Shown here: in pieces, positions 3,401-33,544 of the stretch
Layout of the letters: each line of letters opens with the position of its first letter
How positions within the stretch are numbered: the stretch's first letter is position 1
Source: an archaeon
GTDB lineage: Archaea > Thermoproteota > Thermoprotei_A > Marsarchaeales > Marsarchaeaceae
Length of the DNA stretch: 33,790 nucleotides
NCBI GenBank assembly: GCA_021817005.1
Contig: JAKAWJ010000021.1
Span: 1-33,790 of the forward strand
Direction: 5' to 3'
Notes under the pieces: model-generated
What the model was told of the DNA's origin: nothing
Database searches by the model: none
Seen by the model: only the letters and a program-made list of their open reading frames with translations
Position numbers and translations under genes: made by a program

Positions 3401-3408
3401 AAGCCCAT

Positions 3409-3852: not shown

Positions 3853-3885
3853 TGATGCTCACCAAAAGCGTGTTTTGAGCATTAC

Positions 3886-4326
3886 CTAAGCCTGCTCGAC
3901 GCCGCGTTTTATGCAATCGAAGAGGCCCTTGAGTATCTTGTCCGATGTGTTGCCAATAAATCTCGCACCTAGACCTGCGAGAGGACCAGCAATCGTGATT
4001 GAAGCATCATACGATACTCTTACCGCACTCACCTCATCGCTAAATGTGACTTTTGCGGAGCCGTCCATTCGGCCCCCGCCGCCCGAACCAGAGAGGCTCA
4101 AGTCGATTGCAGTCTTGGGGGTTCTGTTGATTCCCACTGAGAGTTTATAGGTATTCTTGATGAACCCAACCGTGACTACAACATCGGCGTCGAAGTGATC
4201 CTGATCCTTTAAGCTAATGGCTTTGACTCCAGGAATACAATTCGCGACTCTACTCGTATCCGAGGTAAATTCCCATACTCGGTCGAGACTTGCGTTTACC
4301 ACTTCCGAACCGCTCAGCTCGACCAT
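3886..4326 (-). CDS. coxG: CoxG-like SRPBCC protein (CO dehydrogenase subunit G family)
   Basis: A protein of about 146 residues with the SRPBCC (START-like) fold, of the CoxG type. Diagnostic segments are VWEFTSDTSRVANCIPGV near the N-terminus, the glycine-rich turn GSGGGGRMDGSAKVTF, and a C-terminal helix IGNTSDKILKGLFDCIKRG. CoxG proteins accompany xanthine-oxidase-family hydroxylases and aerobic CO dehydrogenases and are thought to help enzyme maturation or membrane association. I prefer the ATG at 4326 because an AT-rich box (GGCTTAAGTC, 4347-4356) sits about 25 nt upstream. The ATG at 4332 would add two residues. It is the first gene of the coxG-moaE unit. Confidence 0.85.
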   Translation of the reverse strand: MVELSGSEVVNASLDRVWEFTSDTSRVANCIPGVKAISLKDQDHFDADVVVTVGFIKNTYKLSVGINRTPKTAIDLSLSGSGGGGRMDGSAKVTFSDEVSAVRVSYDASITIAGPLAGLGARFIGNTSDKILKGLFDCIKRGVEQA

Positions 4327-4593
4327 ACGCATTCGAGCGGATTCCCAGACTTAAGCCTTTTACCCCAGCTCGTCTTCGTGCCTGCGTTTAGACCCGACCC
4401 ACAAAACCTAGATTGTTGTGCTGCTCCATTTTTGCAAAATTGCTACCTTGACAGGTTACTTCTGTATCCCTGAGCGCGTTGTCTTCCGTAGCCTTCCATA
4501 GCTCTTGAATACGACAGGGGTCACGAGGCGAGGTCTATCTTGTCCCAGGTGGGAGAGGCTAGAATATTCAAAACAAGAGCGAATCGTAATTTT

Positions 4594-4758
4594 TCATTTT
4601 GTCCGACTTATACTCACGCCTTCAGAGCACCATCGTTTGCACACTAGCTCCTCATATTCCGCCACACGGGCCAAATCGCTCGGGCGAAGATCCATGGACA
4701 AGACATCAGTATTACCATGCGTAATATCTCTTAGGACTAACAGAAACTCTCCAGCCAT
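4594..4758 (-). CDS. Small hypothetical protein, 54 aa
   Basis: An ATG-started ORF of 54 codons on the strand opposite coxM. It begins MAGEFLLVLRDITHG and contains DLRPSDLARVAEYEEL and a Cys-rich patch VCKRWCSEG. Charged and aliphatic residues alternate as in a folded soluble protein, unlike the competing frame on the other strand. A stop three codons upstream (TGA) fixes the start. It diverges from coxM, with the coxM palindrome 55 bp upstream of its start, so that element could control both. I do not recognise a family. It could be a spurious frame. Confidence 0.4.
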   Translation of the reverse strand: MAGEFLLVLRDITHGNTDVLSMDLRPSDLARVAEYEELVCKRWCSEGVSISRTK

Positions 4759-4812
4759 AAAGTGGTCGTATCAGCTTTGGTGGCGTTTGCACAACCGAAG
4801 TATCCAGTTTCG

Positions 4813-4831
4813 TGAGATAACGCTTATCTCA
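4813..4831. promoter_or_regulatory. Perfect inverted repeat over the coxM promoter (candidate operator)
   Basis: TGAGATAACGCTTATCTCA has perfect 8-bp arms around CGC. It occupies positions -44 to -26 relative to the coxM ATG, and its right arm (CTTATCTC) is also the best TATA-like box for a leaderless coxM transcript. A dimeric regulator bound here would block TBP/TFB. The symmetry is seen directly; the operator role is inferred. Confidence 0.55.
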
Positions 4832-4856
4832 ATGGACCAAGTAGGGCCTCGTTATA

Positions 4857-5732
4857 ATGTACCCGTCCAAGTTTGATTACGTTCGAGTTCAAAGTGTGGA
4901 AGAGGCGGTGCGTGTGCTGGGGGAGCATGGGGAAGAAGCCCGTGTTCTTGCCGGCGGTCACAGCTTAATACCTCTAATGAAGTTAAGGGTGCTAAGACCG
5001 AAATACCTGATTGATATTGGGGGGATCCAGGGACTCAAGTATATCAGAAGAGATAAAAACACCCTCAGAATAGGGGCTCTGACCACATACTTTGAGCTAG
5101 AGAATTCACTCGAAGTGAGTCGCACTCATCAAGTGATCGCCTCAGGAGCCTCAGTTGTGGGGGACCCCCAGGTGCGGAACTGGGGTACTATTGGAGGTAG
5201 CTTGAGCCACTGTGACCCTTCAGGCGACATGGGCTCATGCGTGCTCGCGGCACGCGGACTAATGCATGTTAGAGGGCCATCGGAAACTAGGACAGTTGAG
5301 TCGGATAACTGGTTCGTGGACACGTTTCAGAGCGCTCTTAGACAAGGTGAGATACTGGAGGAAATTGAATTTCAGGTGCCACCAGGAAAGCTCGGAGGTG
5401 CATACCTTAAACTCGAACGGAAGTCCGGCGACTACGCGATAGTAGGTGTGGCTGTCTCGTTAGCCCTTGACTCGTCCGGAAAATGTAGTTACGCCGGAAT
5501 AGGACTGACATCTGTTGGCGCGACCAATCTGAGGGCGAAAAATGCCGAAAACGCAATTCTTGGAAAGATTCCTACGAAGGAGGTGATTTCCGAAGCAAGC
5601 GAAGAAGCATTCAAAGAGGTGACTCCGTCGGACGATCCACTTCGGGGCTCAGCAGAATACAAAAAGGAAATGGTGAGAGTATATGTTAGAAGAGGTCTCG
5701 AGAAGGCGCTTGAAGCAGCGAGAAGCTCATAA
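4857..5732 (+). CDS. coxM: FAD-binding medium subunit of a molybdo-hydroxylase (CoxM/CutM type)
   Basis: A 291-aa subunit of the xanthine-oxidase/CO-dehydrogenase family that holds FAD and passes electrons from the Fe-S small subunit to an acceptor. The two FAD-binding signatures are clear: AGGHSLIPLMKLR (about 32-44) and TIGGSLSHCDPSGD (about 112-125). The C-terminal CO_deh_flav_C part (AYLKLERKSGDYAIVGVAV...) is complete. It is an orphan: no large or small subunit flanks it, unlike typical cox operons, although coxG and moco genes do. The last 6 nt overlap the convergent zinc-ribbon gene. The substrate (CO, aldehyde or purine) cannot be told without the large subunit. Confidence 0.88.
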   Translation: MYPSKFDYVRVQSVEEAVRVLGEHGEEARVLAGGHSLIPLMKLRVLRPKYLIDIGGIQGLKYIRRDKNTLRIGALTTYFELENSLEVSRTHQVIASGASVVGDPQVRNWGTIGGSLSHCDPSGDMGSCVLAARGLMHVRGPSETRTVESDNWFVDTFQSALRQGEILEEIEFQVPPGKLGGAYLKLERKSGDYAIVGVAVSLALDSSGKCSYAGIGLTSVGATNLRAKNAENAILGKIPTKEVISEASEEAFKEVTPSDDPLRGSAEYKKEMVRVYVRRGLEKALEAARSS

Positions 5733-6398
5733 TTCCGATTTACTCTCGGTCGAGTCCTGGCCTTCATTTTCGGTATCAAGCGGTTTGTCCGATTCTACGG
5801 CCTTTGGAACGCGAGAATCCAGCCAACTGTAAAGGTCGCTATCACCCCTCCTGGGATTGGAGGGAATAACAAGACCCCGGGTCATACGACCCAGTCCCAG
5901 AAAAATGCGGTTTCTTATGAGCTGCACAGATTTGATGTCGGTATACCTGACTACTCTTGTCCCGGTTCTCGACGTGACTGTTATGGCGTCGGCTCCGAAA
6001 GTGTAGCTTCGGCGTGATATTGCGGCAATCGACAGCGCAACTCCGACCATAATGAGCACGGCGAGCAAGGTTATAGGATTCGAAGACAATCCAATGAGCA
6101 CAACCGCGAATATCGCCCAAGTGACTACTGTAATAAGACTCGGCAAAAGAGGAGAATTCAGCCTTAGACCTTCGAACGACTCAATTTGTTGCCCTTGGAC
6201 TGGTGACATTTGAGACGGTGCGCGTTGGCCCGGACTTGGATTTTCGGGCTGAACTTCGGATCCCGTCAAAGCGGAGCGGCTGTCGCTCCCGTAGGATTCC
6301 GCCGGCTGCAATGAGGAGGCCCCGGCCAGCGCAGAACCGCAGCTTACACAGGCGGCGGCAGAGTCAGGATTCTTCTTTCCGCAGACCGGGCACTTCAA
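5727..6398 (-). CDS. Membrane protein with N-terminal zinc ribbon and PH-like domain
   Basis: A 223-aa protein. Residues 1-21 form a C-x2-C...C-x2-C zinc ribbon (CPVCGKK...CVSCG). A Pro/Ser/Gln-rich linker of about 60 residues follows, then two adjacent transmembrane segments (about 90-130: LITVVTWAIFAVVLIGL and ITLLAVLIMVGVALSIAAI). A bacterial-PH-like domain comes next (DAITVTSRTGTRVVRYTDIKSVQLI...), and the tail is acidic. The start is TTG at 6398, with GGTTAAATTTG about 30 nt upstream as a likely TATA box. It converges on and overlaps coxM by 6 nt. The function is unknown; proteins of this plan are common membrane-anchored archaeal proteins. Confidence 0.75.
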   Translation of the reverse strand: MKCPVCGKKNPDSAAACVSCGSALAGASSLQPAESYGSDSRSALTGSEVQPENPSPGQRAPSQMSPVQGQQIESFEGLRLNSPLLPSLITVVTWAIFAVVLIGLSSNPITLLAVLIMVGVALSIAAISRRSYTFGADAITVTSRTGTRVVRYTDIKSVQLIRNRIFLGLGRMTRGLVIPSNPRRGDSDLYSWLDSRVPKAVESDKPLDTENEGQDSTESKSEL

Positions 6399-6496
6399 TA
6401 TACTTCAAGTACAGGGCTTCTAGGACAAATTTAACCGTATCGTGAGTGATTTGAGGCAATCACCTTACCTATCGAGGGAAATCGTTATCCTTTTCA

Positions 6497-7252
6497 TTGT
6501 TCGATCGAAGGGTCCTTTGCTGGCACGTGGACCGCCGTAATTTCCTGAAGGTTCTTCGAATTCTGGGCAGTCGTTACAAGCGAGACTTGCCTGCTCACAT
6601 TCGTGAGGACCCTTTCAGGACAATGATAGGCTGTCTTCTCTCAACAAGAACCCTTGATGAAAGGACCGATATCGCGTACACTGCTCTTTTTTCTCGCTAC
6701 CCTACACTTGAAAGCCTTCTGGCTGCTGATCCAGAGGTCGTCAAGGAACTTGTCAGACCCGTGAATTTTTACGCGACAAAAGCAAAGCGCGTATTGGAAG
6801 CTGCGTCATATATTTCAAAGGTACATGGCGGTAAGGTACCCAGAAGCAGGAAATGCCTGTTAGAGGTCCCCGGAATTGGGCCGAAGTGTGCTGACATCAT
6901 ACTGAACTATGCCTTCAGAAAGGCCGCAGTTGCTGTGGACACGCATGTTGAGGTGGTGTCGAAAAGGCTGGGAGTTTGCTCCCCTGAGGATTCATACGAC
7001 GAGGCGAAAAAGAAGATCGAAACCCTGGCGACAAAAAGAGAGCTAGGAAGGATTAACGACATCCTGGTCTGTTTTGGTAAGGAGTTTTGCAAGAAACGTA
7101 ATCCCAAGTGCAATATATGTCCGGTATTCTTTTACTGTGAGTGGCCAGAGAAGTTCAAAGCTGCCAAGCGAGAGCCTGAGAGATATCAAGGAACGGAAAT
7201 AAGAACAAAGAGAGCTCAGGACTCCGCTAAAACTCCTGATAAAAGCCTGTAG
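6497..7252 (+). CDS. nth: Endonuclease III (Nth-type DNA glycosylase/AP lyase)
   Basis: Base-excision-repair glycosylase for oxidised pyrimidines. It has the helix-hairpin-helix VPGIGPKCADIILN with catalytic Lys130, and Asp148 in VDTHVEVVSKRLG. A complete 4Fe-4S loop Cys198-x6-Cys205-x2-Cys208-x5-Cys214 follows. About 35 charged residues after the cluster form a short tail not needed for the fold. The annotated start is TTG at 6497; a GTG at 6527 (MDRRNFLKVL) would give a more typical N-terminus. The 3' end overlaps the convergent racemase gene by 37 nt (7216-7252). Confidence 0.92.
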   Translation: MFDRRVLCWHVDRRNFLKVLRILGSRYKRDLPAHIREDPFRTMIGCLLSTRTLDERTDIAYTALFSRYPTLESLLAADPEVVKELVRPVNFYATKAKRVLEAASYISKVHGGKVPRSRKCLLEVPGIGPKCADIILNYAFRKAAVAVDTHVEVVSKRLGVCSPEDSYDEAKKKIETLATKRELGRINDILVCFGKEFCKKRNPKCNICPVFFYCEWPEKFKAAKREPERYQGTEIRTKRAQDSAKTPDKSL

Positions 7253-8319
7253 CCAGCCAACGCTTGTTCGTCGATTTCAACTCCAATGCCAGGAGATTCG
7301 AAGGGTCTGATCCTACCCTCCATCATTTTGAAGGGATTCTTCACAATATCATGATGAAAATACTTGTCATTTGGAGATGTGTCTCCAGGGTAGTCCACAT
7401 CTGAAATGCTAGCCAAGGCGACGTTAAATGCACGACCTATCCCAGTCTCAAGCATACCTCCGATCCAAACATGTCCCCCGGCTTCTCGCACAAGGTGAGC
7501 TATGGCCAGTGACTCAGTCAAGCCTCCCACTCTTCCAGGCTTTATGTTTACAACCCTTGCGGCTCCAGTCTGCATCGCCTTCCTAGCTTTATCAACTGAG
7601 GTTATGGACTCGTCTAGGCAAATTGGTGTAGCCATTTGTTTGCTGAGTTCGGCGTGGTCAATTATGTCGTCATGCGCGAGGGGTTGCTCGAGATAGACCA
7701 GATTAAACTTATCCAGTGCTCCCAGAGTCGGGGCGTCATTCAAGGTATAGTCAGAGTTTGCGTCTGCGCTTAATGGGAAGGCGGGGACTGCTGGTCGAAC
7801 TGCTGATAGAATTTTATCCTCTTTTCCCTTTTCGATCTTTACTTTTATTCTCTTATATCCTCTTGTGACTGCTGCCACGGCTTTTTCAGCCATACGAGCA
7901 GGCTCGTCCATACCTATCGATATGCCGACGTCTGCAAATCCTTTGGTATTCCCAAGTGCCTTGTAAAGAGGGATACCCTGAACCTTGGCGTGATAATCCC
8001 AGAGCAACATTTCCATCGCGGCTTTTGCCATATTGTGTCCTTTTATCCGGGAAATTTCGTCCATATTCATGAAATCCTTCGGCCTGGGAAGCGCGAGAAC
8101 GTGCTCAGCCAGCAAATCTTTGATGACGTGAAACGAAGTGTCATTGTCTTCAGAACTATAGTACGGCTTGATTTCAGTCACGCATTCAGAGTATGCAGTG
8201 ACACCTTCTGCCTTTAACTGAAAAATCATTGCTGTCCTGTGAGTTTGAGTGTCGAAACTGGTCGTAAAGGGTGCAATGAACGGCATTTTCACTTTTGTAT
8301 AGCTAAGGCTGGCCCTCAA
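7216..8319 (-). CDS. Enolase-superfamily N-succinyl/N-acylamino acid racemase-like enzyme (NSAR/OSBS group)
   Basis: A 367-aa member of the muconate-lactonising subgroup. Catalytic Lys159-x-Lys161 (IKVKI), metal ligands Asp186 (SADANSDY), Glu211 (YLEQPL) and Asp236 (CLDESI), and Lys260 (NIKPGRVGG) are all present. They sit 2-3 residues before the equivalents in the Amycolatopsis racemase (K161/K163, D189, E214, D239, K263). The segment GGMLETGIGRAFN is typical of the NSAR/o-succinylbenzoate synthase family. There are no menaquinone genes nearby, so racemisation of N-acylated amino acids is the likelier role. The start is TTG at 8319, with CTTTTAAG about 34 nt upstream. It diverges from an amidohydrolase. 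Confidence 0.82.
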   Translation of the reverse strand: MRASLSYTKVKMPFIAPFTTSFDTQTHRTAMIFQLKAEGVTAYSECVTEIKPYYSSEDNDTSFHVIKDLLAEHVLALPRPKDFMNMDEISRIKGHNMAKAAMEMLLWDYHAKVQGIPLYKALGNTKGFADVGISIGMDEPARMAEKAVAAVTRGYKRIKVKIEKGKEDKILSAVRPAVPAFPLSADANSDYTLNDAPTLGALDKFNLVYLEQPLAHDDIIDHAELSKQMATPICLDESITSVDKARKAMQTGAARVVNIKPGRVGGLTESLAIAHLVREAGGHVWIGGMLETGIGRAFNVALASISDVDYPGDTSPNDKYFHHDIVKNPFKMMEGRIRPFESPGIGVEIDEQALAGYRLLSGVLAES

Positions 8320-8423
8320 TACAAGTCCATGACCGACAGTTCTCGGCCGCTTAAAAGTTTCGTGACGGCCTCCGTTTTCGGAAAGACCAGAAAGGATTTT
8401 AGCATGCCCGGCAAATCCGAGTC
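8320..8423. promoter_or_regulatory. Divergent promoter region between racemase and amidohydrolase
   Basis: A 104-bp spacer with two separate TATA-like boxes at leaderless spacing. CTTTTAAG (about 8350-8358, minus strand) serves the racemase, and GATTTTAGC (about 8396-8404, plus strand) sits 25 nt before the amidohydrolase ATG. The two genes could be co-regulated here. No palindrome was noticed. Confidence 0.4.
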
Positions 8424-9557
8424 ATGAAGGCAGTCAAAGCAAACCTATTGTACGACGGCGCGACCACGGTTCGGAATGTGTATGTCACCTTTGAGGGAGA
8501 CGTTATCAGGCGGGTAACCTCCGAGAAGCCAGAAGCAGAAATACTTGGGGAGGGAATCGTAACGCCTGCGTTCATTGACGGGCACAGTCATATCGGGATG
8601 GCTAGGTCGGGTGAGCCTGGTCGGGAAGATGAAGGCAACGAGGAAATGGATCCTCTTTTCCCACTCGTCAGTGCCATCCACAGTGTATACATGGACGACA
8701 TTGCATTCAAGGAATCGGTCGAGTCAGGCGTGTTATACTCCACTGTCCTCCCGGGCAGTGGAAACATAGTTGGCGGAAGGGCAGTCTTAATCAGGAACTA
8801 TGCTTCGAATATTGAGCAAGCAAAGATTATGGACGTGGGCGTCAAGGCAGCCCTTGGATACAATCCCAGAAGCACGACCGAGTGGAAGGGAAAGAGACCT
8901 ACTACGCGCATGGGCGCGATTGCTTTGCTGAGGGAGAGTTTGATAAAAGCCACTAAGACCAAGCGCTTGCTCTCCAAACGCAAGAAGCAACCCGATGAAA
9001 TAGAACCCGTTATGGATGCATTTATTGACATACTTGATAGAAGGCTCAAGCTCATGGTTCACCTTCACAAAGAAGATGACGCGATGGTACTGATTCAGTT
9101 AGTTAACGAATTTGGTTTCAAAGCTGTGCTCAACCACGGCATGGACATCTTCAGGGAAGAAGCGTTCGCGAGAGTGGCTGCCGCTGGGATACCCATAGTG
9201 TATGGGCCGTTGGACTCGTTTCCTTACAAAGTCGAGCTGAAACACGAAAGCTGGAGAAACGCGCAATCACTCCTGAAGTCGGGTGCAAAATTCTGCATGA
9301 TGAGCGATCACCCAGTGATTCTGCAGCGCAACATGTTCTATACCCTGCGCCACTTCCTTCGCTTTGGGCTATCCAAGGAAGCTGCAGTGTCGAAGGTGAC
9401 CAAAGACGCCGCCGAAATACTTGGAGCAAAAGGAATCGGAGAGATAAAGAATGGATTCAAGGCTTCGCTTGTAGTCTGGAATGGAGACCCGTTCGACCTT
9501 TCTAATTTCCCTACGCTTGTCATAGGAGAGGGAAAGGAAGTGCACAGGGAAGAGTAG
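8424..9557 (+). CDS. Amidohydrolase-superfamily protein (imidazolonepropionase-like)
   Basis: A 377-aa metal-dependent TIM-barrel hydrolase with the usual flanking beta-sandwich. Seen in order: the first metal motif DGHSHIGMA (about 52-60), a second His pair in MVHLHKEDD, a lone His in LNHGMD, and the metal Asp in MSDHPV. The C-terminal KNGFKASLVVWNGDPFD returns to the small sandwich domain, as in imidazolonepropionase and related enzymes. Substrates of this branch are cyclic amides, N-acyl or ureido compounds. Its divergent partner is an N-acylamino acid racemase-like enzyme, which suggests a joint pathway on N-acylated or cyclised amino-acid derivatives. That link is inference. Confidence 0.75.
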   Translation: MKAVKANLLYDGATTVRNVYVTFEGDVIRRVTSEKPEAEILGEGIVTPAFIDGHSHIGMARSGEPGREDEGNEEMDPLFPLVSAIHSVYMDDIAFKESVESGVLYSTVLPGSGNIVGGRAVLIRNYASNIEQAKIMDVGVKAALGYNPRSTTEWKGKRPTTRMGAIALLRESLIKATKTKRLLSKRKKQPDEIEPVMDAFIDILDRRLKLMVHLHKEDDAMVLIQLVNEFGFKAVLNHGMDIFREEAFARVAAAGIPIVYGPLDSFPYKVELKHESWRNAQSLLKSGAKFCMMSDHPVILQRNMFYTLRHFLRFGLSKEAAVSKVTKDAAEILGAKGIGEIKNGFKASLVVWNGDPFDLSNFPTLVIGEGKEVHREE

Positions 9558-9729
9558 CACAGGTAAGATTAACATCGTATACGGAGGGATCCGCAACCCC
9601 CTTTCTAGTTGGGCGAAGGAGCCTGAAAGTGAGCCGCGGCGATACTAGGGCTTCGCACTGGGTCCATTAATTGATATGGTTAAATTCTGGCCATCCCGTA
9701 TCTGGCGTTGAGTTTTCGGAAGCTTGATT

Positions 9730-10320
9730 ATGAGCTTGAAATTTGGCTGCGTGATACTCGCGGCTGGGGAGTCGCGGAGGGCTGGCAAACTAAAGCTGGC
9801 TGAGAACTACAAGGGTAGCCCGCTCCTGCAGTGGACGGTTGACCTCGCACGGTCTGTCGGGTTCTCAGAGGTGGTAGTAGTGCTTGGAGCTGGAGAGACA
9901 ATTCTTCGAGAAAGAGTAGACTTGGCGGGTTGCTCGGTGGTAGTAAATCGCGAGTACGCCCAAGGAGTATCTGGCTCCATTAAAATGGGACTGAAGGGAC
10001 TGCGACCTGACACAGATGCAGCTGTTATACTCCTTGGGGATATGCCTGATATCACGAAAGCCACACTGCAGAAGTTAATGCTCGCGCATGAGAAGATTAG
10101 GCTTTTTTTCACGTTACCAACTTACCGTGGCAAAAGGGGAAACCCCGTGATAGTGGATTCGAGCGCCTTTCCCGAAGTGCTGAAGCTGGAAGGAGACACG
10201 GGCATACGTCAACTCTTCGGACTTCATCCAGAGGCTGTACAGCGAGTAGAGGTTGACGACCCGGCAATCTTATTCGACATTGATACCCCTAGAGATTTTA
10301 AGCTGCGATCCCAAGTGTAG
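9730..10320 (+). CDS. mocA: MocA/MobA-like molybdopterin cytidylyltransferase
   Basis: A 196-aa nucleotidyltransferase. The N-terminal nucleotide loop is VILAAGESRRAGKLKL, closer to MocA (LAAGxSxRxG, CTP-using) than to MobA (LAGGxxxRMG). Other family marks are VILLGDMPDI, RGKRGNPVI, EGDTGIRQLF and the C-terminal DIDTPRDF. MocA makes molybdopterin cytosine dinucleotide, the cofactor form of CO dehydrogenase and related hydroxylases, which fits coxM, coxG and xdhC here. I chose ATG 9730; an upstream in-frame TTG at 9724 adds two residues. A likely TATA box, GGTTAAATTC, lies at about 9677-9686. Confidence 0.87.
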   Translation: MSLKFGCVILAAGESRRAGKLKLAENYKGSPLLQWTVDLARSVGFSEVVVVLGAGETILRERVDLAGCSVVVNREYAQGVSGSIKMGLKGLRPDTDAAVILLGDMPDITKATLQKLMLAHEKIRLFFTLPTYRGKRGNPVIVDSSAFPEVLKLEGDTGIRQLFGLHPEAVQRVEVDDPAILFDIDTPRDFKLRSQV

Positions 10321-10358
10321 CCCAATCCAAATGAGCAATATGGGTAAAAGTGTGTAAA

Positions 10359-10493
10359 ATGCGTACCCTTACTATTTCTGGAGCATGGAAAAGATGGATG
10401 CTCCTGGAATCAAATGGCAATTGGGTCGTTGACGAACCCCCGAATGCCGCACAAGCAGCTCCGGAGGATGTCAGTGCAGAGTATGACCTTTGA
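10359..10493 (+). CDS. Possible 44-aa hypothetical protein
   Basis: A short ATG-started ORF between mocA and moaC. It begins MRTLTISGAWKRWMLLESNG, then has an acidic/Ala-Pro tail (DEPPNAAQAAPEDVSAEYDL). Codon choice and composition look protein-like and it lies 38 nt behind mocA on the same strand. A 7-bp inverted repeat (GGAGCAT at 10380 / ATGCTCC ending 10404) falls inside it. No family is recognised, and it may not be expressed. Confidence 0.25.
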   Translation: MRTLTISGAWKRWMLLESNGNWVVDEPPNAAQAAPEDVSAEYDL

Positions 10494-10873
10494 ACTTAAA
10501 CCCGATGCCTTTACATGTCTTTCACTTTATGGTACAGATGAATGTGCAAGCTTAACGCTCGTGATCTATGACATTCTCGTCTGATTTCACCGGCAACTAG
10601 CTCAAGGTCTCTGAAATTGCAGTGAGACACTCGCCTCAAGTATTGAACCTTTCTGGCAGTCACCTTTGAATGTGACCAGCCTACTAATCCCCCCACCACA
10701 AACCAAATTCATGGCCAGAGGTCTTTCTTTATTCGAGCCTGAAGTGCGGCGCAAAGTGGGTATACTACGCCGCTCCAGTTTTTCGAACAAAAGGCAAAGG
10801 TGAGCAGCCGGCCGACTAGGAATGCAGAGTCGAGGAAGAAGGTTTATCACGTCGCCCGTGGGATGAAGACTAT
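10494..10873. other. Spacer upstream of moaC, no clear gene
   Basis: About 380 bp. There is a 30-codon + strand frame starting at the ATG near 10710 (MARGLSLFEPEVRRKVGIL...) and a longer minus frame, but neither is convincing. GGTTTATCAC at about 10839-10848 is a plausible TATA box for a leaderless moaC transcript. Confidence 0.4.
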
Positions 10874-11308
10874 ATGCCCCCTGGAACTGTAGACATAACT
10901 GCCAAACAGGTCAGTCAAAGGACAGCAGAAGCTCACGGCAGGTTGCGGTTGAGAAGGAGCACTATTCGCCTTATCAGGGAGGGAAAAGTGCCCAAGGGTA
11001 ACCCCTGCTCAGTCGCGGTAGTTGCCGGCGTGCAGGCCGCCAAAAGAACATATGAATTGATTCCGTACTGTCACCAGATACCCTTAACATCGGTCACAGT
11101 CTTACCGAAAATTGAGGAAGACGCAGTAAGTATCAGCACTCAGGTAAAGGCGAACTACTCGACAGGGGTGGAAATGGAAGCACTGACCGCATGTTCTGTT
11201 GCATTGCTTACTTTCTGGGACATGGTCAAGGAGCTCGAGAAAGATACGACAGGTGGTTATCCCGATACCAAAATAGAATCAGTTGCAGTGACCTTGAAGT
11301 CGAAGTGA
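10874..11308 (+). CDS. moaC: Cyclic pyranopterin monophosphate synthase MoaC
   Basis: A 144-aa MoaC. It converts the MoaA product to cyclic pyranopterin monophosphate in the first stage of molybdopterin synthesis. Family motifs are VDITAK at the N-terminus, AAKRTYELIPYCHQIPLTSV with the conserved His of the CH(P/Q) motif, and TGVEMEALTACSVALLTFWDMVKEL, in which the Asp and Lys of DMVK correspond to the catalytic pair of E. coli MoaC. The length is slightly under the bacterial norm. The ATG at 10874 is about 28 nt downstream of a TATA-like box. It is followed after 6 nt by moaB, so the two form one transcription unit. The MoaA partner is not in this window. Confidence 0.92.
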   Translation: MPPGTVDITAKQVSQRTAEAHGRLRLRRSTIRLIREGKVPKGNPCSVAVVAGVQAAKRTYELIPYCHQIPLTSVTVLPKIEEDAVSISTQVKANYSTGVEMEALTACSVALLTFWDMVKELEKDTTGGYPDTKIESVAVTLKSK

Positions 11309-11314
11309 TAATAA

Positions 11315-11854
11315 ATGAACCGACATCCGCATGAAAATCATGAGCGAGCGTCAGCCGAAATGGCCCAACCAGAGTTCGGGATAATTGTGGCTAGCACTTC
11401 CCGTTACCACGAAAAGAAATCGGGTAAGGAGGTAACTGATGAATCTGGTGACAGAGTGGTTGCTGCAGCTAGTAAAGCTGGATTCAAAGTGACATTCCGT
11501 ACTCTAGTAGATGATGAGATTCATGAGATAAGATATGCTATTCTAAAGTCGATTGTGGATGTCAGATGCGACGTTTGCGTCGTAGTAGGAGGTACAGGAA
11601 TATCAGGCAGAGACGTCACGGTAGAGGCAACTCGGCCCCTCTTAGACAAGAGCCTGCCGGGATTTGCCGTTAGATTTCAATTAGAAAGCATTGAACAAGT
11701 AGGTAGCTCGGCCATGATTTCTAGAGCAGTGGCAGGGGTGCTGAGAAAATCGCTTGTGGTCTGCCTCCCTGGGTCACCTGAGGCTGTTGACAAGGGGATG
11801 GAAATCTTGATCCCCGCAGTTAAGCATATGCTATTCATCGCCAGAAAGGACTGA
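11315..11854 (+). CDS. moaB: MoaB/Mog-type molybdopterin adenylyltransferase
   Basis: A 179-aa protein of the MoaB/MogA family, which adenylates molybdopterin before molybdenum insertion by MoeA. The signature is complete: VVVGGTGISGRDVTVEATRPLLDKSLPGFAVRF, then GSSAMISRAVAGV and CLPGSPEAVDKGMEILIPAVKHML. The first roughly 20 residues (MNRHPHENHERASAEMAQ) are a polar leader absent from most homologues, so translation might begin at an internal ATG (Met16). It lies 6 nt after the moaC stop. With moaC, mocA and moeA it supplies most of the later steps of cofactor assembly. Confidence 0.9.
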   Translation: MNRHPHENHERASAEMAQPEFGIIVASTSRYHEKKSGKEVTDESGDRVVAAASKAGFKVTFRTLVDDEIHEIRYAILKSIVDVRCDVCVVVGGTGISGRDVTVEATRPLLDKSLPGFAVRFQLESIEQVGSSAMISRAVAGVLRKSLVVCLPGSPEAVDKGMEILIPAVKHMLFIARKD

Positions 11855-25002: not shown

Positions 25003-28000
25003 ATGTCAGGAGCTGTAAAAGCATTTTCCACCATTCACGGGCTCCACGTAACCATTAAGAACGGGTCGACAGTGACACTCCGCGTGAAGGGCTATTATTT
25101 GTATCCTGACGTATACAAAAACAGGATTTGCTTCGTCTCCGACGATGATGTATGGCTAACGGATGACAAGTCGCACTCAGCAAGTAGGCTCACTGTAGGT
25201 TTCGGAGTCGTCTCTCGACCGAAATTCTCTCCGGATGGCGCATGGATAGCTTTCAGGGGGCAGAAAGGCACGGACCAAGCCAGCGCCGAAATCTACGTAA
25301 TTTCTACATCAGGGGGAGAAGCCCGGAGGCTCACTTATTTCGGTGGTCTGGGGGTAGACATGGTTGGGTGGACAAAAGACGGGAAAGTGGTATTTTCGAG
25401 CGATACTGGCCGACCCTTTCGGGGCTGGAAGGAACTGTTCAAAGTTTCTCCGTCGGGAGGCGAGCCAGAGCGGCTGCAATTCGGCCCGGCCACTGGCGTG
25501 ACGTGGGGGGAGGGCTTTACTGTGCTCGCCCGAAACTCAAGCGATCTAACTCATTGGAAACGCTACAGGGGCGGAACAAGGGGAAAGTTTTGGATAGACC
25601 GGACTAACAGCGGCGAGTTCGTAAAGTTCCTAGAACTAGATTCCAACCTTAACTCTCCTTGCGTTATCGGCAGGAGACTTTACTTCATATCGGACCATGA
25701 AGGTGTTGGAAACATTTATTCCGTATCCGTTGACGGGAATGGAGGAGACATAAATAAACACACCAATCATAACGAGTACTATGTGAGGAATGCCAGCTCG
25801 GACGGGGAGAGGATAGTCTTCCACTCAGGAGGTGATCTGTTCATTTACGATCCAAGCTCTGACAAGGAAGTAAAGCTCCAAGTTGATATCCCCTCACCCC
25901 AAAGACAGAAAGAGGCTAGGTATGTTGAACCGAGTGAGTTCTTGGAGGCGTACGGGCTGCACCCCAAGGGTCACATGCTTGTGCTGACAATTCGCGGAAA
26001 GTTATTTGTAATGGGCAACTGGGATGGACCGGTTCACCAAGCGGGAATGCACAACGGGGTGAGGTACCGATTGCCAAATCTTGCCCCAGAAGAGAACAAA
26101 CTGGTCACAATATCCGACGCAACGGGGGAAGAGAGATTGGAACTTCACGACCTTGAGCGAACAGAGATCAGGCAGATCGAGAAGGATTTCGGAATCGTAG
26201 AAGAGCTTGTGCTGTCACCTGACGGGGAACGAGTCGCAGTAACGAACAACCGCTTCGAGCTTTGGTCAGTCCAATTAAGCGACGGCTCGGCGAAGAGACT
26301 GGACTCAAGCGAATACGGTTCTATATCAGGTGTCCAGTGGCACCCGAGCGGTGATTGGCTCGCGTATAGCTTCCCTGAGTCGAACCACACGGCCAGTATA
26401 AAACTGGTTAATATTGGCACCGGCGAGTCAGCAAGGGTAACTACTCCGACCGCGGTGGACTATAGCCCGTCATTCGACCCCGAAGGAAGATATCTGTACT
26501 ACCTTTCGCAGAGGTGGTTTGACCCCGTCTACGACAAGGTGATTTTTGACCTGGGCTTTCCAAAGGCCTCAAAACCGTTCGTAGTTACCCTCCAAAAGGA
26601 AACGCCGTCCCCGTTCAATCCAGTGCCGAAGCCCCCGACGAAAGGTGGAGAGGCAAAGGATACACAAAAATCAGAGTCAAAGATAGACATCGCAGGTATA
26701 GTAGAAAGGGCAGAACCTTTTCCAGTTGACGAAGGAGATTATGTCAAAATAGCAGGAATCAAAGGGAAGGCGCTCTTTCTATCGTTCCCAGTTGAAGGCG
26801 CGATGCGCAGATGGCTTTTCTCTGCTGGTCCGCGCACCAATGGGCTCTTAGAGGTCTACGATATGGAGGAAAACAGCAAGGACACGTTGCTCTCGGGCAT
26901 ATCGGATTTCGAACTCTCGGCAGACCGGTCAACGTTAGCCTACAGAGTTGGGGAGCAAATACGGGTTGTCAAGGCCGGAGAAAAATTAGACGAAAAGCCT
27001 CCCAGTCTCCCAGGAAGAAAGTCTGGCTGGGTAGACCTCAAACGAATCAAGGTCCAGGTCGACCCGGCAGCAGAATGGAAACAGATGCTAAAGGAAACCT
27101 GGAGGCTGATGCGGGAGAACTACTGGCGAGAAGATATGCGCGGACTTGATTGGGCCAAAGTATGGGAGAGGTACTATGACCTGCTTAGCCGAATAAGCAC
27201 GCGCTCTGAGCTTTCGGATCTACTGCGGGAAATGCAAGGTGAACTCGGCACCTCACACGCCTATGAGATTGGAGGAGACTACGGAGAAGATCGCTTGCCA
27301 CAAGTAGGAGCTATCGGGGCCGAGCTGAAATTCGATGGAAATGGTTACAGAATCGAATCTATTGCCGTAGGAGACCCTTCAAATCCAGGCGAAAAATCCC
27401 CTCTGAAAGCACCTGGAGTCGGCCTCGAAGTGGGCGATGTCCTGCTTGAGATCGCCGGCCAGCGTCTGACTGACCAACTTACATGGAGGATGGCCCTCCT
27501 TAACCACGCAGGCGACACGGTCGCAATCAGAGCCGAGACTAAGGCTGGCGTAAAGACGTTGAGTATCAAAACGCTTCAGGACGAAAGGCAACTGCTTTAC
27601 AGGGCGTGGGTTGAAGCAAACAGGAGCTATGTGCATGAGAAGACCAACGGAAGGATAGGCTATGTTCACATCCCGGATATGGGCCCACATGGGTATGCCG
27701 AGTTCCACAGGCTCTATCCGCAGGAAACGGAGAGGGATGGACTCATCGTTGACATCCGCTATAACGGCGGCGGACACGTCTCAATGCTACTTCTTGAGAA
27801 GCTTGCACGAAAGCGCATAGCTTACGACAAGCCGAGAAGAGGTAAAGTCTCACCTTACCCTCAGGACTCGGTCAAAGGTCCCATAGTCGCCCTGACAAAC
27901 GAACTCGCTGGTTCTGATGGCGACATTTTCAGCCATTCTTTCAAACTGCTCGGACTGGGCCCCCTGATAGGAACCAGGACTTGGGGAGGCGTGATAGGGA

Positions 28001-28230
28001 TCAATCCTAGACTTAGACTCGTCGATGGCACGTTTGTGACTCAACCTCAATTCGCTTTTTGGTTCTCAGATGTGGGTTGGGGAGTGGAGAATTATGGTAC
28101 AGAACCGACCACGCTCGTCGAAAATCGCCCACAGGACTATGCGCGACGCGTCGATTTCCAACTAGATACCGCAATTGACACTGTCCTGCAAATGCTTGAC
28201 AAAGCAACTCCGGTTAACGCTCCAGATTGA
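25003..28230 (+). CDS. tri: Tricorn protease
   Basis: A 1075-aa tricorn core protease, which cuts proteasome products to small peptides in the cytoplasm. The N-terminal two thirds are beta-propeller repeats (FSPDGAWIAFRG, LSPDGERVAVTNN, WHPSGDWLAYS). These are followed by the C1 helical domain, a PDZ domain (about 765-855, VGDVLLEIAGQRL) and the C2 serine-protease core. Catalytic residues Ser751-His752, Ser971-Asp972 and Glu1029 are intact. All sit exactly six residues after those of Thermoplasma TRI (S745, H746, S965, D966, E1023). It is full length with no frameshift. No F1-F3 aminopeptidase cofactor genes are in the window. Confidence 0.96.
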   Translation: MSGAVKAFSTIHGLHVTIKNGSTVTLRVKGYYLYPDVYKNRICFVSDDDVWLTDDKSHSASRLTVGFGVVSRPKFSPDGAWIAFRGQKGTDQASAEIYVISTSGGEARRLTYFGGLGVDMVGWTKDGKVVFSSDTGRPFRGWKELFKVSPSGGEPERLQFGPATGVTWGEGFTVLARNSSDLTHWKRYRGGTRGKFWIDRTNSGEFVKFLELDSNLNSPCVIGRRLYFISDHEGVGNIYSVSVDGNGGDINKHTNHNEYYVRNASSDGERIVFHSGGDLFIYDPSSDKEVKLQVDIPSPQRQKEARYVEPSEFLEAYGLHPKGHMLVLTIRGKLFVMGNWDGPVHQAGMHNGVRYRLPNLAPEENKLVTISDATGEERLELHDLERTEIRQIEKDFGIVEELVLSPDGERVAVTNNRFELWSVQLSDGSAKRLDSSEYGSISGVQWHPSGDWLAYSFPESNHTASIKLVNIGTGESARVTTPTAVDYSPSFDPEGRYLYYLSQRWFDPVYDKVIFDLGFPKASKPFVVTLQKETPSPFNPVPKPPTKGGEAKDTQKSESKIDIAGIVERAEPFPVDEGDYVKIAGIKGKALFLSFPVEGAMRRWLFSAGPRTNGLLEVYDMEENSKDTLLSGISDFELSADRSTLAYRVGEQIRVVKAGEKLDEKPPSLPGRKSGWVDLKRIKVQVDPAAEWKQMLKETWRLMRENYWREDMRGLDWAKVWERYYDLLSRISTRSELSDLLREMQGELGTSHAYEIGGDYGEDRLPQVGAIGAELKFDGNGYRIESIAVGDPSNPGEKSPLKAPGVGLEVGDVLLEIAGQRLTDQLTWRMALLNHAGDTVAIRAETKAGVKTLSIKTLQDERQLLYRAWVEANRSYVHEKTNGRIGYVHIPDMGPHGYAEFHRLYPQETERDGLIVDIRYNGGGHVSMLLLEKLARKRIAYDKPRRGKVSPYPQDSVKGPIVALTNELAGSDGDIFSHSFKLLGLGPLIGTRTWGGVIGINPRLRLVDGTFVTQPQFAFWFSDVGWGVENYGTEPTTLVENRPQDYARRVDFQLDTAIDTVLQMLDKATPVNAPD

Positions 28231-29571: not shown

Positions 29572-30417
29572 GTGGTGAAATTCTGCGGGGTTGAGTATAT
29601 GCAAGACCTGAGCTTCCCAGCCCTCGTTGGACAGATGGCCTCAAAAGGTAGACCATTTGTCGTAGCTACAGTGGTCGACACTGAAGGCTCGACGCTCGCC
29701 AAAAGGGGCTTCAAAGTAGTAATGAATGAAAGAGGAGAAGTGGTTTACGGTACCTTGGGCGGGGCGTGTCCAGAAGGCGCAATTTCTGAGGTTGCTCTCG
29801 AAACCATCCGGACCCGAAAGCCCAAGCTTGTAAAGGTGATACTGGAAGATACTGGAAGGGCAGTGGCAGCTGCGCTGAAGCCTCAGGAGTCTGATGTGAT
29901 ACATGTAGAGACCAACTGCGGAGGACGGATGCAGATATTTGTTGAGCCCTTTACCGAAAAGGAGAGATTGATAATAGTAAGCGATGGAGGGAGGGACGAA
30001 GTGGCGAGTGCCGTCGCGGCAATGGCCGAAACTGTTGGCTTTCGTGTTGAACTAGTCGATCCATCGGGAACGGTACCCGAAATAAGGAACATCCACAAAA
30101 GTGAATCCATTCTCGAACTTGATGTAGGGAAGGAGGACTACGTGGTACTGGTCACCCGTGGAAGGCTAGACGTGCCGGTGTTGGAAGAACTCTCCAAGGT
30201 CGGATGTAAATATATTGGGCTCATGGGCTCCCGGACACGCATCGCGGAAGATTTTGAAAAGCTTCGAGCCAAAGGAGTCGCAGATGATTACCTGAACTTC
30301 GTGCGCGCTCCTGTTGGCGCTGACATAGGAGCTCAAACTCCTGAGGAAATTGCACTGAGCATCGTGGCGGAGCTAGTCGCTGCAAGGCACGGAAAAGAAG
30401 TATGGCGAAAGCGCTGA
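29572..30417 (+). CDS. xdhC: XdhC/CoxI-family molybdoenzyme maturation factor
   Basis: A 281-aa protein with both family domains. The N-terminal XdhC_CoxI part has GSTLAKRGFKVVMNERGEV and GTLGGACPEGAI, where family members have GGGC. The C-terminal Rossmann part ends GLMGSRTRIAEDFEKL and APVGADIGAQTPEEIALSIVAELVA. XdhC proteins bind molybdopterin cofactor, protect it, aid its sulfuration and insert it into xanthine-oxidase-family enzymes, which matches coxM and mocA in this window. The start may be GTG 29572 or 29575, or the ATG at 29599. The 3' end overlaps moeA by 16 nt, implying cotranscription. Confidence 0.9.
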   Translation: MVKFCGVEYMQDLSFPALVGQMASKGRPFVVATVVDTEGSTLAKRGFKVVMNERGEVVYGTLGGACPEGAISEVALETIRTRKPKLVKVILEDTGRAVAAALKPQESDVIHVETNCGGRMQIFVEPFTEKERLIIVSDGGRDEVASAVAAMAETVGFRVELVDPSGTVPEIRNIHKSESILELDVGKEDYVVLVTRGRLDVPVLEELSKVGCKYIGLMGSRTRIAEDFEKLRAKGVADDYLNFVRAPVGADIGAQTPEEIALSIVAELVAARHGKEVWRKR

Positions 30418-31661
30418 CGCGGGAGCCAATAGGAGGAGACCCTCTGGCAGGGATGCACCCAGTATCCAAACTGCTGAAATACCGCAAGTTCCTCAAGCTT
30501 GTTTTTAGAGAAACTCGACCAATTGCGGGTGTCGAGAAGATCACTCTTCCTCAGGCTGTAGAAAGAATACTTGCACGTGATTTCAGGGCAAGGAGATTCA
30601 TTCCCAATTTTCGTAGGTCGAATTTCGACGGTTACGCCGTCCGTGCCGTAGATACAGCTGGCGCTTCCAAGTCTTCCCCAGTTGAACTTAGCCTGTCAGG
30701 CTTTTCGAAACCGGGAAAGCCCTACAGCAGAGCGCTTGGCCGACGCGAATGCGTCAGGATATTCACGGGAGCGGCTCTTCCTCATGGGGCAGATGCCGTC
30801 GTAATGGTCGAATACACAGAAGCTAATGGTGGCATAATCAGAGTATTCGAGGAGGTAGCTTCTGGTAGTCGATATGATGATGTCGGAGCGGATATCAGGC
30901 GCGGCTCGCTTCTGCTCGCTCGAGGTCGAAGAATCCGTCCGCTTGACCTGCCAATCATCGCTTCCCAAGGTGTGAATTCCGTGGAGGTGGCCATCAGACC
31001 AAAGGTGTTGGTCATTCCTACCGGGAATGAAGTGAAACCTGTGGGCCGCCGCTTAAAAACCAGCGAAATTTATGATGCCAACAGTTTAGCTGTAGCTGAG
31101 CTAATTAGGAAAAGAGGAGCGATTGTTATGACGCACCCACCAGTACGTGATAGCCCGCGAGCCATCTCAGATGTCCTGAGCAGATCCCGTGGGCGTTACC
31201 ACATGATAGCATTCATTGGTGGGTCCAGCGCCGGGTCTGAGGACTATGTGGCTCGACTGGTCGCGGAAAAGGGGGAGGTGTTCGTGCATGGGATCGCAAT
31301 CAGCCCAGGCAGGCCCACTCTATTTGGACGCGTAGGAAAGACGCTAGTGCTCGGCATTCCTGGCCACCCTGCATCGAGCGTGGCCGTAACGGTTCTGGCG
31401 GCCTGCCCCATAGTCGATAGGTTGTCTGGAGCAATCGAAGATGCCCCTTACTCATACGTTAGACTCCATTCTCAACCAGATTGTCCGGAAGGGCTGACCT
31501 GTGTCAGAACAATCAGAGCCTCTGGCGACGGTGCGACACTTGTCTATAAGAGCTCAAGCCAGCTGTCTAGTTTCTTGAATAGCGATGGTTACATACTCCT
31601 TGACCCAGAGACCGATGAGGGTAACGGTGATGATGGATGGGCTCGTTTACACTTCTTTTGA
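30402..31661 (+). CDS. moeA: Molybdopterin molybdenumtransferase MoeA
   Basis: A 419-aa MoeA that inserts molybdate into adenylated molybdopterin. It shows the N-terminal SNFDGYAVRAVDT motif (SxMDGYA in relatives), FTGAALPHGADAVVMVE, the central VLVIPTGNEV...TSEIYDANS, and the active-site segment GGSSAGSEDY. These are followed by HGIAISPGRPTLFG, GIPGHPASSVAV and a complete C-terminal domain IV. The ATG at 30402 overlaps xdhC by 16 nt; Met18 at 30453 would remove the overlap and fits the family start better. It pairs functionally with moaB (adenylation) and mocA (cytidylation). Confidence 0.93.
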   Translation: MAKALTREPIGGDPLAGMHPVSKLLKYRKFLKLVFRETRPIAGVEKITLPQAVERILARDFRARRFIPNFRRSNFDGYAVRAVDTAGASKSSPVELSLSGFSKPGKPYSRALGRRECVRIFTGAALPHGADAVVMVEYTEANGGIIRVFEEVASGSRYDDVGADIRRGSLLLARGRRIRPLDLPIIASQGVNSVEVAIRPKVLVIPTGNEVKPVGRRLKTSEIYDANSLAVAELIRKRGAIVMTHPPVRDSPRAISDVLSRSRGRYHMIAFIGGSSAGSEDYVARLVAEKGEVFVHGIAISPGRPTLFGRVGKTLVLGIPGHPASSVAVTVLAACPIVDRLSGAIEDAPYSYVRLHSQPDCPEGLTCVRTIRASGDGATLVYKSSSQLSSFLNSDGYILLDPETDEGNGDDGWARLHFF

Positions 31662-31713: not shown

Positions 31714-32418
31714 CTAAGCAACAAATCCTATTCTATCCCTGGTCGTATCCTTACCCGGGAGCAACATAAGGTCCGGAAGCAACACTCCAAGATGCAGGGG
31801 GGTCTCATTTATTATCCATTTCCTTGCCCTAGCCTCCCTCAGCGCGCCCGTCACGTGAGACCACGCAGTGAGCGAGTCAGTCTCATACATAACGACAAAT
31901 TCATGGTCACCCAAACCGTAGCTGTAGGTTGTATAAGAACGGATGCCCTTCCCCTCTGGATGCGAGCGTGCTATTCCGATGTGCTCTGACATGATCCTTT
32001 TCCTTTCCTCATAGTCAAGTTGGTACCAGTCCGCACTTTTGCTCATCGGATATGCCACGAAATATCGCAGCGGCTCCCTCCTGAAACCTTCCGTCAAGTC
32101 TCCTCCTGGTTTGACGTAGGGAGATTCCTCGAAGAGAGAAAGAAGGCTGTGTGTTGGGTCCGCGACTCCAACAAAGGCGCTGTTAATTTTGAGCTTGATG
32201 TCCGCGAGTTGTTCCGGTTCGCGTGAAGCGCACCAGAAGAGCAGATCACAATCCCACTGCATAGACTTGTATGCTCGAAAGAATAATGGTCCCGGGGTGC
32301 TGTCTTCAATACTCTTCCTTAACCTCGACGCAATCCTCCCCCTAAGAATTGAATCTCCTGACCACCAGGCAGGCTGCAATCGGTAGGCAAGGACCATCAT
32401 GTAAACTTCTGCTGACAA
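31714..32418 (-). CDS. Chlorite dismutase/HemQ-family heme protein
   Basis: A Cld-fold protein of about 234 residues. The C-terminal half carries YFVAYPMSKSADWYQL and ERKRIMSEHIGIA. The Tyr-Pro-Met-Ser-Lys motif and downstream His match the catalytic Tyr147/Met149 region and proximal His174 of coproheme decarboxylase (HemQ), with a 4-residue shorter loop. TYSYGLGDHEFVVMYE is also typical. In Gram-positives HemQ makes heme b from coproheme; archaeal relatives are less well understood. The frame is open to 32526, but domain sequence starts at EVYMMVLAYRLQPAWW. A TATA box at 32446-32456 favours the TTG at 32418 or ATG at 32400. It diverges from mfnB. Confidence 0.78.
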   Translation of the reverse strand: MSAEVYMMVLAYRLQPAWWSGDSILRGRIASRLRKSIEDSTPGPLFFRAYKSMQWDCDLLFWCASREPEQLADIKLKINSAFVGVADPTHSLLSLFEESPYVKPGGDLTEGFRREPLRYFVAYPMSKSADWYQLDYEERKRIMSEHIGIARSHPEGKGIRSYTTYSYGLGDHEFVVMYETDSLTAWSHVTGALREARARKWIINETPLHLGVLLPDLMLLPGKDTTRDRIGFVA

Positions 32419-32445
32419 TGCCCTTTGTAGCTTGTCCAGAGACGC

Positions 32446-32456
32446 AATATATAATT
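32446..32456 (-). promoter_or_regulatory. TATA box of the HemQ-like gene
   Basis: Minus strand AATTATATATT. It lies about 33 nt before the TTG at 32418 and is one of the strongest TATA-like elements in the window. Its position inside the longer open frame argues for the shorter HemQ-like protein. Confidence 0.5.
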
Positions 32457-32505
32457 TCCACGAAGAGGTCGGAGGAGAAGATGTTACTACTGACTCGTGG
32501 TACAG

Positions 32506-32513
32506 CTTATAAT
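32506..32513 (+). promoter_or_regulatory. TATA box of mfnB
   Basis: CTTATAAT is centred about 28 nt before the mfnB ATG at 32538, ideal for a leaderless transcript. It also lies inside the longest possible frame of the divergent HemQ-like gene. Confidence 0.55.
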
Positions 32514-32532
32514 TCGGACTAGTCAAAATAAA

Positions 32533-32553
32533 TCACCATGATGCTCATGGTGA
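32533..32553. promoter_or_regulatory. Perfect inverted repeat spanning the mfnB start codon
   Basis: Arms TCACCATGA (32533-32541) and TCATGGTGA (32545-32553) are exact reverse complements around TGC. The start ATG (32538-32540) is in the left arm. It has the same plan as the coxM-promoter palindrome (8-9 bp arms, 3-nt centre). It could be an operator just downstream of the transcription start, or a chance symmetry of a start region rich in ATG. Confidence 0.55.
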
Positions 32554-33293
32554 GCGTGCAAGATCTGAGAGAGGCAGAGCAGGCAGTACGTGGCGGCGCG
32601 GATATAGTCGACGTGAAGAATCTAAAGGAGACTATTGTGGGGTCAAATTTTCCGCCAGTAATAAAAGAAGTGAGGAATGCCTTCCCCAAGAATATCCACG
32701 TCAGTGTCACGCTTGGCGCTGTTCCGAACCAAGCTGGCACCGTGGCACTGGCTGTTTATGGTGCAGGTGCGCTGGGGGCGACTTCCGTCAAGGTGGGCTT
32801 CGTAAATACCGACTTTGAAACGGCTTTGAGAATATTGAAAGAATCTCGCAAAGCTCTCGAGGGGTTTGACACTAAGCTCATAGCAGCAACTTTTGCTGAT
32901 AGCCACCTCTATGATGGCCTTCCTGCGGAGCATGTGGTGACCCTTGGCGCAGAGAGCAAATCCGACGGCATTTTAATTGACACACTGACAAAGGATGGAA
33001 GGAACCTCTTTGATTTCGTTCCCGAGAAGAAACTACTTGAACTTGTGAGTTCGGCAAAGGAAAACAGAATGAGCGCAGCGCTTTCTGGGTCATTGAGAAT
33101 AGAGAACCTGAACACGCTTGCCAGAATAAACCCTGATATTGTAGGAGTGCGCGGGGCAGTGTGCACGAATGGTGACAGGGAGTCTGGACATGTGGCTGCA
33201 GAAGCGGTGGCGAGGCTGAAATCTGAGCTGCAGAAACGAATGAACGGCGAGATTGACGTTTACGCCCTTGCCAAAGGGGCGGCGGCGGTTTGA
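32538..33293 (+). CDS. mfnB: MfnB-like (5-formylfuran-3-yl)methyl phosphate synthase family protein
   Basis: A 251-aa TIM-barrel aldolase-like protein (DUF556). MfnB joins two molecules of glyceraldehyde-3-phosphate to the furan precursor of methanofuran. The N-terminus is MMLMVSVQDLREAEQAVRGG and the Schiff-base/catalytic lysines are Lys27 (ADIVDVKN) and Lys85 (SVKVGF), at exactly the positions known in the M. jannaschii enzyme. The acidic site LIDTLTKDG (Asp148, Asp153) and VGVRGAVC near the C-terminus are also present. Nothing else in the window is methanogenic. It is followed by an overlapping TusA-like gene. A product other than methanofuran is possible. Confidence 0.85.
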   Translation: MMLMVSVQDLREAEQAVRGGADIVDVKNLKETIVGSNFPPVIKEVRNAFPKNIHVSVTLGAVPNQAGTVALAVYGAGALGATSVKVGFVNTDFETALRILKESRKALEGFDTKLIAATFADSHLYDGLPAEHVVTLGAESKSDGILIDTLTKDGRNLFDFVPEKKLLELVSSAKENRMSAALSGSLRIENLNTLARINPDIVGVRGAVCTNGDRESGHVAAEAVARLKSELQKRMNGEIDVYALAKGAAAV

Positions 33294-33544
33294 GCGAGTC
33301 ACCCCCTCACAACCTTGCTGGCACTATTGACGCCACCTCCCGCAACTGTAAAGGAGTAATAGCCGGCTTGGAGGCGCTTTTGGGCGACGCTCCTCCCGGT
33401 ACAAGCGCAGTCGCACTGATTGGTGACGTTCTAAGCCGCCATGATGTTCACACCTGGTGTGACAGAAAGGGGTACAGAGTGACTCTGGAAGAGCGCCGTG
33501 GTAAGGTTATTGCACTAACAATCGTAAAGAGTCGGGACTCGTAA
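33290..33544 (+). CDS. Degenerate TusA-like small protein coupled to mfnB
   Basis: An 84-aa protein starting at a TTG whose bases overlap the mfnB stop (TTGA, 33290-33293), so translation is probably coupled. Residues 13-80 fit the TusA (SirA/YeeD) fold. IDATSRNCKGVIAGLEALL aligns with LDxxGLxCPxPVxxLKKAL, PPGTSAVALIGD with the PG-turn, and DVHTWCDRKGYRVTLEER with the DIxxWaxxxGH region. The catalytic Cys (Cys20) is kept but CPxP has become CKGV. TusA proteins pass persulfide sulfur, including to molybdopterin and tRNA thiolation. Without CPxP the role is uncertain. The family call is moderate. Confidence 0.55.
   Translation: MSESPPHNLAGTIDATSRNCKGVIAGLEALLGDAPPGTSAVALIGDVLSRHDVHTWCDRKGYRVTLEERRGKVIALTIVKSRDS

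Follow-up and report, generated by a model that had tools for sequence, protein, structure and literature searches.

A four-base overlap joins mfnB to a gene for a TusA-like protein

The window analysed here is a stretch of 33,790 nucleotides from an archaeon of the Marsarchaeaceae (contig JAKAWJ010000021.1, positions 1 to 33,790). Near its right-hand end, two genes lie on the forward strand. The first is an mfnB-type gene (32538..33293, +), whose 251-residue product is a Schiff-base aldolase of the 4-HFC-P synthase family and belongs to what is called below the trio subfamily. The second is a TusA-like gene (33290..33544, +), which has a TTG start and encodes 84 residues, with Cys20 in a CKGV sequence that replaces CPxP. 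The two open reading frames, whose overlap had been described in an earlier note on this DNA, share the four bases TTGA (33290..33293, +), the TTG start of the TusA-like gene running into the TGA stop of mfnB. Four-base overlaps are also present at related loci (L002-L006, L008 and L017), and among relatives either such overlaps or short gaps recur between the two reading frames, one archaeal pair being fused.

A gene of the chlorite dismutase family (31714-32526, -; PF06778, E 1.9e-44) is divergent to mfnB, with a gap of 11 bases between the annotated starts. Molybdenum cofactor and CO-dehydrogenase-type genes occupy 2342-11854 and 29572-31661, and encode ThiF-like, MoaE, CoxG, CoxM-like FAD subunit, MobA-like, MoaC, MogA-like, XdhC and MoeA proteins. 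A tricorn-type protease of 1075 residues, with Peptidase_S41, Tricorn_C1 and PDZ_Tricorn matches, is encoded at 25003-28230 (+).

The small protein has a TusA fold and an invariant cysteine

A search of the PDB with the 84-residue sequence alone returned mostly chance matches (MS2 coat protein, E 0.016), and was superseded by fold and profile searches. The protein matched the Pfam TusA family, PF01206, with E 2.2e-4 and 21.5 bits, below the curated cut-off of 28.6. A profile of 34 sequences matched Thermoplasma Ta1170/Ta1414 (1pav) at E 1.3e-4, with the cysteine aligned to the CPxP cysteine. The AlphaFold model, made with 34 relatives, has a pLDDT of 87.3 and a beta-alpha-beta-alpha-beta-beta order, and Foldseek matched it to SirA-like 3hz7 and to E. 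coli TusA (3lvj_C) at TM 0.74/0.80, as well as to 1dcj. The protein therefore models as TusA in the structure prediction that the earlier note had proposed, and its description there as TusA-like with CKGV in place of CPxP holds.

The protein lacks the CPxP motif, having retained the cysteine and lost both prolines, and it had been called degenerate. That word does not fit the alignment, in which Asp14, Cys20, Gly22 and Trp56 do not change across the 44 rows, a few of which are duplicates. A degenerate or decaying TusA was ruled out by the invariant cysteine: with a conserved C-x-G motif standing where TusA has CPxP, we regard the protein as a variant and not a decayed copy. Two canonical CPxP TusA-like proteins are encoded elsewhere in the same genome (L181, 8170-8439, and L193, 8409-8684).

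MfnB and the TusA-like protein belong to a three-part module

Relatives were sampled from contigs of database genomes (39 loci) and from 147 genomes of the window's class. A TusA-like reading frame follows mfnB at about 20 archaeal loci. Fusions to MfnB number about 20 in bacteria, with one more at an archaeal locus. Metagenome-assembled genomes (MAGs) labelled Thermoplasmata and Micrarchaeota have the reading frame directly 3′ of mfnB, and the bacterial fusions are found in Chloroflexota (SAR202/Dehalococcoidia) and Planctomycetota. Given this recurrence across archaeal and bacterial loci, the pairing exceeds chance.

A DapA-family protein of about 325 residues, here called X, is encoded within 6 kb of MfnB-TusA at 36 of the 39 database-genome loci, and X-MfnB-TusA is a single polypeptide of about 700 residues at L021, L022, L123 and L125. 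X from the window's genome matches PF00701 with E 4.8e-29 and fails the curated dapA model TIGR00674 (74.2 bits, against a cut-off of 206.15). The Schiff-base lysine, K174, is invariant among 29 sequences, with a YN motif, and the fold is dihydrodipicolinate synthase-like (2yxg, TM 0.79/0.87). A profile search of the PDB with X gave no match at a threshold of E 1e-30, which was too strict. X-MfnB-TusA, hereafter the trio, is a conserved module of three parts, two of which are the MfnB and the TusA-like protein described above.

The window's genome (G000) is 84.6% complete. In it X lies on a separate contig (C17), with the gene for a MenA-like UbiA prenyltransferase as its divergent neighbour, an arrangement common to the window's family. 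X was found in five of the 147 genomes of the class, all five of this family; four of them carry MfnB-TusA, and the fifth, G008, is 78% complete. The X gene of G020 (L070 / G020:C9:6443-7407) is split into two pieces, one of which contains a TGA; a frameshift, a misassembly or damage to the gene would account for this. The genomes compared are MAGs, and the absences given below are absences from MAGs.

The positions of the XdhC and MoeA genes just upstream of the pair, and of the MoaC, MogA-like, MobA-like and MoaE genes elsewhere in the window, would suit a sulfur step in molybdenum cofactor synthesis or in the maturation of a molybdenum hydroxylase, and the earlier note had tied the pair to these genes. 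The MoeA/XdhC neighbourhood, however, extends no further than the genus and, in part, the family; in G014 it lies on the same stretch, and it was not among the clusters common to the other trio loci. The molybdenum cofactor link was ruled out on these grounds: the neighbours are local and no part of the trio module, and we consider a molybdenum role highly improbable. The genus and G020 (L043) retain the pairing of the chlorite dismutase family gene with mfnB, and other trio loci do not.

MfnB of the trio is distinct from methanofuran-type MfnB

The mfnB product matches PF04476 (4HFCP_synth) with E 3.7e-59 and 200.7 bits, passing the curated cut-off of 22.4. In an alignment of 57 MfnB sequences the equivalents of D25, K27, K85, D151, K155 and R217 of MJ1099 are near-invariant; D25, K27, K85 and D151 we take to be catalytic. 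K155 of MJ1099 is a named catalytic residue (PMC11365854). With the catalytic residues kept, a furan product is plausible. In a phylogenetic tree with some long branches, the trio MfnBs form one clade (support 100/99), apart from the MfnBs of class-mates and of M. jannaschii, and about 19 positions are fixed differently in trio and methanofuran-type MfnB.

Membership of the MfnB family would suggest ordinary methanofuran synthesis for C1 metabolism. Formylmethanofuran formyltransferase (FTR, PF01913), however, was found in none of 32 distinct trio genomes, including the window's (G147, which has the same coordinates as G011, was counted once, and G008 was counted on X alone), as against all six class-mates with a plain MfnB. 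Three of these six were checked further, and had no COX1 and only a weaker UbiD match. As FTR is absent from the trio genomes, the trio is unlikely to serve ordinary methanofuran chemistry. This absence ruled out methanofuran synthesis as a candidate; the separate clade and its differently fixed positions also argue against it, and it seems to us extremely improbable.

The trio recurs among genes for late steps of quinone synthesis

A survey of mfnB neighbourhoods had been proposed for non-methanogens. The partners that proved informative were the DapA-like aldolase and quinone genes of the UbiA, UbiD, UbiX and UbiE types, all outside the window, and not the molybdenum cofactor genes. In Dehalococcoidia the genes run UbiD-UbiA-UbiX-[X-MfnB-TusA]-UbiE along a single strand at L022, and UbiD-UbiA-UbiX-[X-MfnB-TusA] at L125. 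Four Micrarchaeota loci (L015 and L018-L020) have the order MfnB-TusA-X-UbiD-UbiA, with UbiX nearby, and at L123 the X-MfnB-TusA fusion is followed by one reading frame and then by COX1. The UbiD proteins of the window's genome (528 bits), L022 (627 bits) and L125 (606 bits) pass the cut-off of 495.9 for TIGR03701, the menaquinone biosynthesis decarboxylase, and that of L018 falls under it (439 bits). The Micrarchaeota loci are from small MAGs with the trio, UbiD/UbiA/UbiX and a DUF981 membrane protein. A search for COX1 in the trio-bearing Micrarchaeota genomes gave no match.

Trio genomes carry UbiD, usually with UbiA and UbiX, and some have UbiE-like genes; COX1 is present in 24 of the 32. 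The window's genome further carries UbiX, a UbiE-like methyltransferase, a polyprenyl synthase, COX1 and cytochrome b, with mfnB-tusA, X, UbiD and UbiX/UbiE spread over four contigs. A second UbiD-family protein of this genome (L104, 225-1676, contig C21) is nearest to phenylphosphate carboxylase beta and scores under the cut-off for that family.

At most loci the trio is not adjacent to UbiD, and X and MfnB-TusA have no neighbouring quinone gene. Together with the retained catalytic residues of MfnB, this would be expected if the trio made some other cofactor, containing furan or sulfur and with no relation to quinones, and lay near quinone genes through shared regulation or chance. Such a cofactor appears distinctly unlikely, since the trio has come to lie with UbiA or UbiD-UbiA-UbiX independently in Dehalococcoidia, in Micrarchaeota and in the window's family, and since each of the 28 trio entries searched gave a strong UbiD, compared with the weaker match in three class-mates with a plain MfnB.

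The early quinone genes tested are missing from trio genomes

The early quinone genes tested were those for MqnA/MqnD (PF02621) and MenD (TIGR00173). No PF02621 match, and no MenD match above the TIGR00173 cut-off, was found in the 32 trio genomes. Among 47 control genomes of the Dehalococcoidia class without X (among G170-G216), MenD was present in 13 and MqnA/D in three others (16/47). One-sided Fisher tests, which ignore relatedness and leave out three weaker MqnA/D matches in the controls (two of them in MenD-bearing genomes), gave p values of 0.01 within the class and 7e-5 with all trio genomes. About 21 COX1-bearing Dehalococcoidia controls were without MenD (at the cut-off), MqnA/D and X, and such absences are therefore common in Dehalococcoidia. 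A scan of the window's genome for radical-SAM motifs gave few candidates, none of them named MqnC or MqnE; the same scan showed no clear MoaA. The control genome of Sulfolobus acidocaldarius has a match above cut-off to PF02621, the MqnA/MqnD family. Sulfolobales are reported to make sulfur-containing quinones.

A proposed role in the head-group branch of a respiratory quinone

The trio lies among quinone genes in archaea and bacteria without the early quinone genes tested, and may therefore belong to an undescribed respiratory-quinone route and not to methane metabolism. The reading that we consider most likely, somewhat more probable than not, is that X-MfnB-TusA supplies a carboxylated head-group precursor of the respiratory quinone, as a new early branch. 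MfnB would condense triose phosphates via a lysine Schiff base, X would add a pyruvate-type unit, and the invariant cysteine of the TusA-like part would carry sulfur or an intermediate. A UbiA/MenA/MqnP-type enzyme would then prenylate the product of the trio, an MqnL-type UbiD with UbiX would decarboxylate the prenylated product, and a UbiE/MenG-type enzyme would methylate last. By carbon count, two trioses and pyruvate would add up to nine carbons, of which eight would remain once decarboxylated. What the genomes show is that the trio is conserved, is fused in places, co-occurs and lies repeatedly among quinone genes; from this we infer the reactions, their order, the product and the role of the cysteine, and the use proposed for the two aldolases and the cysteine is a guess. 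Counting against a quinone is that it is not obvious how a quinone ring would arise from two aldolases and a TusA-like protein. The main caveat is that the aerobic Dehalococcoidia controls lack the tested pathways and X alike; the Micrarchaeota cluster without a COX1 match, the many loci at which UbiD is not adjacent and the scatter over four contigs in the window's genome also count against it. In a bolder version, triose phosphates and pyruvate would be made by the trio into the ring itself, independently of chorismate, and the respiratory quinone would be an undescribed one that might contain sulfur; this is in our judgement unlikely.

The ring might instead be made conventionally, for example from 4-hydroxybenzoate or by an unrecognised chorismate route, with the trio making a modification or side group, for instance a substituent with sulfur or a furan, for the quinone or for some other prenylated lipid. 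The genomic linkage would suit this equally well, and the invariant TusA-type cysteine suggests sulfur transfer. UbiA, UbiD and UbiX also serve quinones derived from 4-hydroxybenzoate. A side group, however, gives no account of where the ring would come from when a genome has neither MqnA/D nor MenD, and we give this explanation only a modest chance.

The late enzymes of the favoured head-group branch are of known kinds. A search of literature open without subscription found no paper treating MfnB together with TusA, and neither the trio nor its proposed role was found described there. The earlier suggestion that the pair could define an undescribed cofactor or sulfur step is retained as a cofactor step, which is the best reading; its tie to molybdenum cofactor genes, whose neighbourhood is restricted to the genus and, in part, to the family, is not. 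Quinone pathways seem to be missing from many lineages of bacteria, most of them Bacillota and Chloroflexota, and the existence of further quinones is suspected (PMC13386864); an older survey found a complete menaquinone pathway in only 42.8% of archaeal organisms outside the Sulfolobales (PMC3914697). X-MfnB-TusA is a concrete candidate gene set, testable by lipid analysis, and it shows that a gene annotated as 'mfnB' does not necessarily point to methanofuran when found outside C1 metabolism.

Comparison with known systems

The late steps of the futalosine menaquinone pathway (MqnP, MqnL, UbiX and MenG) resemble those of trio genomes in the MqnL-type UbiD, usually accompanied by UbiA and UbiX and sometimes in one operon with the trio. 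Unlike that pathway, all 32 trio genomes are without MqnA/D. The UbiA matches of trio genomes are below the MqnP and MenA cut-offs, and the UbiE-like protein of the window's genome is below the MenG/UbiE cut-off.

Trio MfnB resembles the 4-HFC-P synthase MJ1099 (PDB 4rc1/4u9p, PF04476) over its full length and keeps the catalytic Asp and Lys residues. It differs in fixed changes, among them P29L, Y83S, Y122F, M149L and A186S (MJ1099 numbering), in forming a separate clade and in occurring without FTR. X shares with the DapA/NanA (DHDPS) family, PF00701, the fold (2yxg), the invariant lysine and the YN motif, but scores far under the dapA, nanA and KdgD cut-offs. DapA has a TT-G-E motif, in place of which X has N/G-M-G-E. 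Finally, the TusA-like protein is like the TusA/SirA-like sulfur carriers (E. coli TusA 3lvj_C, PF01206) in its fold and in a cysteine at the position of the CPxP cysteine, and differs from them in its C-[K/A/R/T]-G-[V/I/A] motif, in a Pfam score below the cut-off and in being coupled or fused to MfnB.
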